Shown: in pieces, positions 24,877 through 61,038 of the stretch | Layout: every line of letters starts with the position of its first letter | Position numbering within the stretch: the stretch's first letter is position 1 | Translations under genes and position numbers: made by a program | Source: Alphaproteobacteria bacterium | Lineage (GTDB): Bacteria > Pseudomonadota > Alphaproteobacteria > Micropepsales > Micropepsaceae | Direction: 5' to 3' | Length of the DNA stretch: 64,000 nucleotides | Assembly: GCA_017983635.1 (NCBI GenBank) | Contig: JAGOBA010000010.1 | Span: 1-64,000 of the forward strand | Notes under the pieces: model-generated | What the model was told of the DNA's origin: nothing | The model's input: only the letters and a program-made list of their open reading frames with translations | Databases searched by the model: none

Positions 24877-25950
24877 ATGTTCATTCGCGCGTTCATTCTA
24901 GCCGCAATCCTCGCGTCCCCCCTTTCCCTTGCGGAGGATGTACGCACGAAACACTCGTCCGCGAGCGAGGCGTCTGCAAACTTTCGAGCGCTTCCCCCCT
25001 TGAGGGGGAAGCTGGCGCGCGCGGAACGCGCGCGACTGATGGGGGGGCTTCGCACGCCGACCGCCCCCCATCCGTCTCGCCGCGTTCCGCGGCGATCCAC
25101 CTTCCCCCTCAAGGGGGGAAGGGCTGATCTTGGCAGCGGTTCAATTCCTTCTTCTTCCAAACCCGCGCGCATCGTCTCCACCAACGTCTGCGCCGACCAA
25201 CTCGCGCTTGCGCTTGCCGATCGCGGCCGCGTGATTTCGGTTTCGCGCATGGCGATCGAGCCGCAGATCTCGAACTTCGCCGATGCCGCGCGCGGAATCG
25301 CTATCAACCACGCCCGCGCGGAAGAAATCGTCGAACTCAAGCCCGATCTCATCTTGGGCGACATCTACACCGGCAAAGGCGCGAACCGCCTGGCGCAGAC
25401 ACTCGGCGTCCCCGTGCACATCATCGGTTTCGCCGCATCGCTCGAAGACGTTCGTCAAATCATCCGCGACGCCGCGAAGGCGCTCGGCGAACCCGAGCGC
25501 GGCGAAACGCTCATCGCAAACATGAGCACCCGAATCACCAAAACCCATTCCCCAAACACCAAAACCGTCACAGCGCTCGTCTACGAACCCAACGGCATCA
25601 CCACCTCCACGGGCACGCTCACCCACGACATTCTGACGACCGCCGGCCTCACGAACATCGCGCCGAAACTCATGCACGGCAGCTACGGCAGCGTGCCGCT
25701 CGAAGCCGTCGTCGCCGCTGCGCCGCAGCTTTTGATCCTCGACGACTCCTATGCCGGCACCTCAAGCCGCGCGCAAAGCACCCTGCGCCACCCGGCGCTC
25801 AAGAGCCTTGAGGGCAAGACCGCGCGCTACGACATGCCCTCGCGCCTCTGGCTCTGCCCCGGCCCCTGGGTCGCCGAAGCGGTCGAGCGTCTGGCCGAAG
25901 AGCGCGCCCGCCTGGGCCGCACGCTTGCACCGGCTGCGAAAGCGGAGTAA
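24877..25950 (+). CDS. btuF: Cobalamin ABC transporter substrate-binding protein, BtuF-like, with in-frame palindrome
   Basis: A 357-residue periplasmic binding protein of the BtuF/FecB-like fold. A signal peptide (FIRAFILAAILASPLSLA) is followed by about 70 residues without homology-like content, then the usual mature start SKPARIVSTNVCADQLALAL. The domain contains LKPDLILGDIYTG and the C-terminal lobe QLLILDDSYAG. The extra N-terminal stretch is largely the translation of a 133-bp palindromic repeat (24990-25122) with no stop codon, making the protein about 50 residues longer than expected. The cobalamin riboswitch and btuC, btuD follow, so vitamin B12 is the probable ligand. Confidence 0.82.
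   Translation: MFIRAFILAAILASPLSLAEDVRTKHSSASEASANFRALPPLRGKLARAERARLMGGLRTPTAPHPSRRVPRRSTFPLKGGRADLGSGSIPSSSKPARIVSTNVCADQLALALADRGRVISVSRMAIEPQISNFADAARGIAINHARAEEIVELKPDLILGDIYTGKGANRLAQTLGVPVHIIGFAASLEDVRQIIRDAAKALGEPERGETLIANMSTRITKTHSPNTKTVTALVYEPNGITTSTGTLTHDILTTAGLTNIAPKLMHGSYGSVPLEAVVAAAPQLLILDDSYAGTSSRAQSTLRHPALKSLEGKTARYDMPSRLWLCPGPWVAEAVERLAEERARLGRTLAPAAKAE
24990..25122. repeat. Palindromic repeat inserted inside btuF
   Basis: Two arms of about 60 bp form an imperfect palindrome. The outer arms CTTCCCCCCTTGAGGGGGAA and the matching TTCCCCCTCAAGGGGGGAAG are each palindromic themselves. Next come inner GCGGAACGCG-type blocks and GATGGGGGG / CCCCCCATC blocks around an AT-poor centre. 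This sequence type is a common intergenic repeat in alphaproteobacteria. Here it lies between the signal peptide and mature domain of BtuF, open throughout in the btuF frame, where it is read as LPPLRGK...FPLKGGR. Confidence 0.85.
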
Positions 25951-25960
25951 CCCCGTCTTG

Positions 25961-26105
25961 CTATCCGGTTTAGGGAACGCGGTGCGAAACCGCGGCTGCC
26001 CCCGCAACTGTTAGCGGCGAGCGTCGTCGAACAAGCCACTGAAGCATCCGCTTTGGGAAGGCCGGCGAAGCACTTGAGCCGTGAGCCAGGAAACCTGCCG
26101 GAAAG
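25961..26105 (+). ncRNA. Cobalamin riboswitch aptamer
   Basis: Conserved elements in order: P1 5' strand TCCGG (25964-25968), AGGGAACGCGGTGCGAAACCG, then GCTGCCCCCGCAACTGT, the GCCACTG and GGGAAGGC pair, and the B12 box AGCCAGGAAACCTGCCG at 26084-26100. P1 closes with CCGGA at 26098-26102. Downstream, CGTCGCG (26152-26158) and CGCGACG (26171-26177) form a hairpin directly before the GAGG ribosome site of btuC, a probable expression platform acting on translation. The aptamer begins about 10 bp after the btuF stop, so it governs btuC and btuD rather than btuF. Confidence 0.95.
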
Positions 26106-26184
26106 CGTCGTCCATCCGCGGGCCGGGGTGCGCCAACGGATACGGGTCAACCGTCGCGGCGACTGACGAACGCGACGTGAGGCT

Positions 26185-60771: not shown

Positions 60772-60806
60772 TGAGACTATCGATAGAACAAACGGCGAAA
60801 CCAATC

Positions 60807-60868
60807 TCACCTCTACCTTCCCTTGGGAAGGGCGAGGGGCCGGGGGTGAGGGAAGGGCGGTCCGCAGG
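60807..60868. repeat. REP-like GC-rich hairpin after meaB
   Basis: CCTTCCCTTGGGAAGG is a self-complementary block. It is nested in outer CTCACC and GGTGAG halves, followed by GGGAAGGGC. It resembles the widespread REP-like sequences of proteobacteria (CTCACC.. with GGCCGGGGGTGAGGG). It starts about 36 bp after the meaB stop codon. Confidence 0.6.
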
Positions 60869-61038
60869 CTCTCATCTAGCCAGGTGCGACGTATCGGCCT
60901 TCCCGCACCTCCAGCCCGCTGGACGTCGCTCGGTTGTCTTGACGCCCCGCACCCCCTCCACTATAGGTCCGGCCCTCCCGCGCGGGCCACAAATCCGCGT
61001 GGGTTCTCGTTTCATCTTACCGACGGACTTTGACGACC

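Follow-up and report, generated by a model that had tools for sequence, protein, structure and literature searches.

REPs tagged with CGTC are typical of alphaproteobacteria, in which they are mostly intergenic and mostly arranged as head-to-head dimers (Di Nocera, De Gregorio and Rocco, 2013; PMC3733652). In the parts of that survey on which we draw throughout, no dedicated transposase is assigned to these repeats, TGTC and CCTC are allowed as variants of the tag (AGTC is not explicit), and some copies are described in frame within genes, DnaE2 included. RPE-4 and RPE-6 of Rickettsia conorii are placed among the CGTC-tagged REPs, proteins with an N-terminal RPE-1 are expressed in vivo, and the WPE of the B. 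malayi Wolbachia is described as unrelated to CGTC-4 repeats (PMC3733652). The same authors suggest that many REPs at 5′ ends act post-transcriptionally, and warn that most N-terminal cases may stem from mis-annotation, many of these REPs being probably extragenic. In Wolbachia, WPE-like in-frame insertions have been reported in addA, addB, and priA (PMC4224334).

Here we describe a palindrome of this general kind within a btuF-like gene of an alphaproteobacterium. The window, that is, the whole stretch of DNA analyzed, is 64,000 nucleotides long; the genome that holds it is referred to as G000, and other G numbers denote relatives.

Results

A palindrome open in the btuF reading frame

The features of the gene are as follows.

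24877–25950, plus strand: gene for a BtuF-like periplasmic substrate-binding protein of 357 aa (open reading frame; Peripla_BP_2, E 6.5e-19)
24877–24933, plus strand: signal peptide MFIRAFILAAILASPLSLA (from the sequence; a similar peptide stands directly before the mature domain in congeners)
24934–24986, plus strand: lineage-specific linker 5′ of the element, EDVRTKHSSASEASANFR (absent from G004, G007, G010, G006, G002, and G001)
24987–25125, plus strand: palindromic element, a head-to-head pair of half-units encoding (A)LPPLRGKLARAERARLMGGLRTPTAPHPSRRVPRRSTFPLKGGR(A)
24987–25046, minus strand: left half-unit, with terminal hairpin CTTCCCCCCTTGAGGGGGAAG, an inner GC-rich hairpin, and an AGTC-type tag on the minus strand (match to model R1 at 24991–25046, E 8.9e-16)
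25064–25125, plus strand: right half-unit, with a CCCCCCATC-CGTC tag, hairpin TCGCCGC/GCGGCGA, TCCA tail, and terminal hairpin CTTCCCCCTCAAGGGGGGAAG (match to model R1 at 25064–25121, E 4.6e-17)
25126–25161, plus strand: linker 3′ of the element, DLGSGSIPSSS (from the sequence; not in congeners)
25171–25809, plus strand: substrate-binding domain, predicted intact (Pfam residues 99–311; AlphaFold2 pLDDT)

Pfam places Peripla_BP_2 at residues 99–311 of the protein, the direct BtuF model (NCBIfam PRK03379) matches weakly (E 2.4e-6), and sequence comparison with the PDB gives periplasmic binding proteins, heme-binding ones included, as the best matches. The name BtuF, which we use as a putative assignment, is owed chiefly to context: a cobalamin riboswitch (RF00174) lies at about 25949–26116, and btuCD-like permease and ATPase genes are found downstream. 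Because the riboswitch sits between btuF and the btuC-like gene, btuF itself lies upstream of it. Cleavage of the signal peptide is likely to occur after SLA, as judged by the −3/−1 rule.

The earlier note had described a 133-bp palindrome at 24990–25122. We found that the palindrome is real but that its natural ends lie 3 nt farther out on each side, which gives an imperfect palindrome of 139 nt (AGCGCTTCC...GGAAGGGCT). Its 34-nt terminal arms (24987–25020 and 25092–25125) are 88% complementary, and comparison of the full element with its reverse complement gives 81% identity. The RNA fold of the element has an energy of −115.5 kcal/mol, compared with a mean of −68.6 in shuffled sequences (z −10.7), and none of 200 dinucleotide shuffles folded as well; the DNA fold (−68.4) gave a z of −10.0.

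The element is open through the BtuF frame, as the earlier note had stated, within an open reading frame of 357 codons' worth of protein. The estimate of about 45 added residues comes close for the element, which separates the signal peptide from the substrate-binding domain by a further 46 codons, and falls short for the whole extra N-terminal stretch, which is about 75 residues relative to congeners. Openness is predicted by composition alone: over 11 full-length copies, a mean of about 2.5 of the six frames were open, as against about 2.6 in composition shuffles. Because open frames are no commoner than in shuffles of this GC-rich sequence, openness carries no weight, and we rejected the proposal that the element is built to be coding.

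The insert is absent from six congeners and differs from that of G005

In six congeners (G004, G007, G010, G006, G002, and G001), KPQRIVSTN follows the signal peptide almost directly and there is no insert; congeners are mostly represented by draft genomes, so that presence and absence rest on single assemblies. The insert lies, as had been proposed, between the signal peptide and the mature domain. A long extension was found in this genome and in G005 only, and 27 of the 29 homologues inspected were without it. The BtuF of G005 carries near the same place an unrelated palindrome of the CCCTCACCCCCAGCCCCTCTCCC type (112 matches of the type in G002), together with half of a third palindrome of the CTTCGCGTCTTCGCGTGA type (match at G005 C330:2242–2269). 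In a BtuF tree that is poorly resolved, G000 and G005 were sisters in 0% of bootstrap trees, which fits independent insertions. The second palindrome family, to which the G005 BtuF palindrome belongs in type, is represented by a copy in the window, at 60806–60917.

Extra linker is present outside the palindromes in both G000 (24934–24986 and 25126–25161) and G005 (locus L032, upstream of 1501). The two linkers are weakly similar (SSASEASANFR in G000 and SGASESAQPSFFR in G005), so that the linker before the element, 24934–24986, may be partly shared with G005. An alignment of BtuF sequences, intended in the earlier note to confirm a clean insertion, therefore confirmed that the insert is missing from six congeners and did not establish a single event: the element is flanked by about 30 extra residues that a single clean insertion leaves unaccounted for. 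As the length of 139 nt is not divisible by 3, the element must have been accompanied by some change in its flanks, and these are too diverged for target-site duplications to be read.

A family of paired half-units

The half-unit of the family is about 56 nt long and comprises two hairpins, CGTC-TCGCCGC/GCGGCGA-TCCA and CTTCYCCC/GGGRGAAG. Full elements consist of two half-units head to head, and such pairs were often seen in the genome. When the element was searched against G000 by BLAST, 50 matches were obtained (each palindrome is counted on both strands); with a covariance model built from 28 half-units, 57 half-units were detected in this genome (E ≤ 0.01). The closest other copies are 84–87% identical to the BtuF element. 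Strong half-unit matches in five congeners numbered 2–25 per genome. No Rfam family matched the element, and a tmRNA and the cobalamin riboswitch were the sole matches in the loci scanned. The element had no match in PLSDB, so spread on plasmids is not supported and was rejected.

Copies at the 38 sites examined in this genome were mostly intergenic, and about four were within genes, in keeping with the earlier description of the palindrome as intergenic in type. Three sites (RdgB, DnaE2, and AceF) passed a two-sided test for coding in a single frame. BtuF was entered as a fourth in-gene site by homology, because too little flank lies to its left for the test to be applied. None of 46 strong sites in five congeners passed this test, which is strict and misses BtuF too. 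We conclude that the half-unit family is intergenic by habit and occurs in genes only occasionally.

Draft assemblies, of which this is one (34 contigs), can be mis-joined at repeats, and the repeat might have been joined wrongly into btuF. We consider such an artefact the most improbable of the explanations: the BtuF copy has a sequence shared by no other copy, is embedded in a contig of 160 kb with the frame kept, and has an independent counterpart in the insert at the same place in G005.

Pairing within the half-unit hairpins is conserved across copies. Paired cells made up 91.8% in the hairpins and 80.4% in shuffles, and there were 27 double-changed cells, whereas shuffles gave 10.0 and slid controls no more than 15; the latter comparison is important, since relatedness by itself can exceed the shuffled level. 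This conservation, the fold at −115.5 kcal/mol, and the role suggested for many 5′-end REPs (PMC3733652) speak for the idea that the element is maintained for RNA regulation, as a very stable hairpin located about 110 nt into the message that slows translation or stabilizes or processes btuF mRNA. We think this unlikely, as the element is present at this site in one species only and the palindrome of G005 is unrelated to it. Furthermore, there is no sign of selection at the BtuF site, and the B12 riboswitch is located downstream, before the btuC-like gene, rather than at the start of the btuF message.

Translation and state of the BtuF-like protein

Both the signal peptide and the start region (CTATAGAGCA...ATG 24877) precede the insert and have counterparts of the same kind in relatives; translation is thus expected to pass through the element. 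In-frame TTG (25000) and ATG (25039) codons are present within the element, and if BtuF started 3′ of it, the upstream open reading frame would be a mis-annotation, in line with the many N-terminal REPs regarded as probably extragenic (PMC3733652). However, a later start, a possibility raised in the earlier note, is quite improbable, because it would deprive a periplasmic protein of its export signal and because the stretch preceding the insert, start region and signal peptide alike, matches that of relatives. The inserts in RdgB and DnaE2 (described below) are internal, and no such escape is available there. We therefore draw the strong inference that the insert is translated as part of BtuF.

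In an AlphaFold2 model computed from a 10-row alignment, the binding domain (about residues 96–350) had pLDDT values mostly of 80–98, and residues 1–87, insert included, were disordered. The comparison with G004 gave a pN of 0.153 and a pS of 0.385, in line with pairs of genes without inserts, and in the domain pN was lower than pS against all congeners. The size of the insertion and the moderate pN are the only points in favor of the idea that insertion inactivated BtuF and that the open frame is a remnant. This idea is very improbable, given that btuF has no stop or frameshift, that its pN and pS resemble those of insert-free pairs, that its end branch (0.15, and 0.14 for G005) is no longer than expected, and that the modeled domain is intact. 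By these sequence measures, the gene shows no decay.

In-frame palindromes in RdgB and the DnaE2 linker

A search of the genome for other in-frame copies, which the earlier note had recommended, yielded a clear case in RdgB, a 29-nt hairpin in DnaE2, and a weak case in AceF. RdgB (L018 1501–1566; G000:C17:535578–535643) contains an in-frame half-unit, LPSASPLEGEAGTPRSGVTVGG, that adds 20 codons and is absent from nine relatives; with the insert, the protein still matches TIGR00042 above the cut-off. The match to the half-unit model in AceF is in frame (L187 4822–4870). A weak in-frame match was also seen in a GT4 glycosyltransferase (L184 1568–1628), and the AceF and GT4 matches score 25–29 bits.

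The DnaE2/ImuC linker, from WDNTLEP to LHPRHA, was examined at loci L210, L211, L212, L213, L222, L215, L216, L274, and L295. It is empty in G004 and G003, with 24–25 residues up to MRLG, and in the wider family, where the linker could be read, it has only 7–9 residues in most genomes. The linkers of five other genomes contain palindromes, all in frame and free of stops: a 29-nt hairpin of the BtuF-element family in G000, a full variant of that family in G001 (fold −149), the second palindrome family in G002 (fold −137), a third family with a fourth nested inside it in G005 (fold −206), and a single unit of the third family in G008. G001 and G002 are sisters (100/99), yet their linkers contain different palindromes. 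Long, strongly folding inserts in the DnaE2 linkers of G011 and G018 are probably palindromes as well. The third family (CGTC-ATGGCCGGG-CTTGA-CCCGGCC), which is abundant in G000 and G005, reads as a textbook CGTC repeat.

Comparison with known palindromic repeats

The BtuF element resembles the CGTC-tagged REPs in several respects. A tail of TCCA or GCCA follows its stem in nearly all rows of our alignments, where the REPs have a 3-nt tail with consensus CCA; the tags face each other in full-length copies, as in head-to-head dimers; and no copy lies beside any of 20 retrieved Y1_Tnp neighborhoods, in agreement with the lack of transposase linkage. An alphaproteobacterial host, mostly intergenic copies, some in-frame copies, and DnaE2 as a target are also common to both (in the parts of PMC3733652 considered). 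In other respects the element differs. Its stem, typically TCGCCGC/GCGGCGA, has about 7 bp and a loop of about 4, whereas the REPs usually have a stem of 8–9 bp starting with A-T and a loop of 4–5; a variant of the element in G008 reads CGTC-AT. In alignment A2, the tag is CGTC in 16 right-type rows and AGTC in 12 left-type rows, so the tag agrees with that of the REPs in the right half of the element and departs from it in the left. Each half-unit also has an extra outer hairpin (CTTCYCCC/GGGRGAAG), giving a composite of about 139 nt, and BtuF is not among the targets mentioned in the portions of text of PMC3733652 used here. We thus classify the element, on its sequence features, as a composite CGTC-REP-like dimer, the same kind of repeat without being a strict member, and as a new instance of a known phenomenon.

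The analogy with Rickettsia that the earlier note had drawn proved apt and close, given that RPE-4 and RPE-6 are placed within the superfamily most like the element (PMC3733652). The RPEs are palindromes of similar size found in frame in many unrelated proteins at tolerated positions (a likeness of description), and for BtuF, RdgB, and DnaE2 the in-frame insertions are likewise absent from orthologues. Unlike in the RPE case, only about 4 of 38 sites are in genes here, and there is no sign of an intracellular host. The Wolbachia WPEs are comparable in that they are palindromes lying in frame within DNA repair genes and are mostly free of premature stops, although their sequences differ from the element. 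Like REPINs and GTAG REPs, the element has REP hairpins paired in inverted orientation, which fold together into a single large hairpin. No copy of the element family occurred within about 2 kb of a Y1_Tnp locus (six in this genome and 14 retrieved in congeners), and we rejected a RAYT-driven REPIN as the origin of the family. Three RAYT (Y1_Tnp) loci of G000 (L088, L091, and L093) have distinct inverted repeats of their own, e.g., GCCGGCTGGAAGCCGGCGCTCCCAGCGGGGG.

Discussion

We propose, with a probability of roughly 85% for the account as a whole, that a REP-like palindrome inserted in btuF is translated through and forms a disordered tail as a passenger. A non-autonomous palindromic repeat, related to the CGTC-tagged REPs of alphaproteobacteria, would have inserted in the 5′ part of the gene by a mechanism for which no transposase was identified. 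The insertion could survive because the net addition kept the frame, no in-frame stop was introduced, and the stretch between signal peptide and fold is tolerant. The mRNA would be translated from ATG 24877 through the element, and the signal peptide would be removed upon export. Mature BtuF would then begin with a disordered tail of about 75 residues, of which the element supplies 46, and binding would be little affected. Other copies would act likewise as passengers in RdgB and the DnaE2 linker.

BtuF is a clear example of a REP-type palindrome close to an N terminus that should belong to the reading frame, given that a signal peptide precedes it; this answers the objection that N-terminal REPs are mis-annotated. 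The least expected point is the recurrent invasion of one site, the DnaE2 linker. It is possible, though we regard it as doubtful, that some linkers (foremost that of DnaE2/ImuC, and less so the BtuF signal-peptide junction) serve repeatedly as landing sites, in which whichever palindrome family is abundant inserts in frame and the loop is rebuilt from unrelated palindromes. If so, inserts in the DnaE2 linker could tune a mutagenic polymerase, which would go beyond mere tolerance. The linker, empty in some species and differently filled in sisters, offers a natural series for asking whether the inserts are neutral or alter the polymerase. Together, BtuF, RdgB, and the DnaE2 linker indicate that intergenic palindromes supply protein segments in alphaproteobacteria outside the Rickettsiales.
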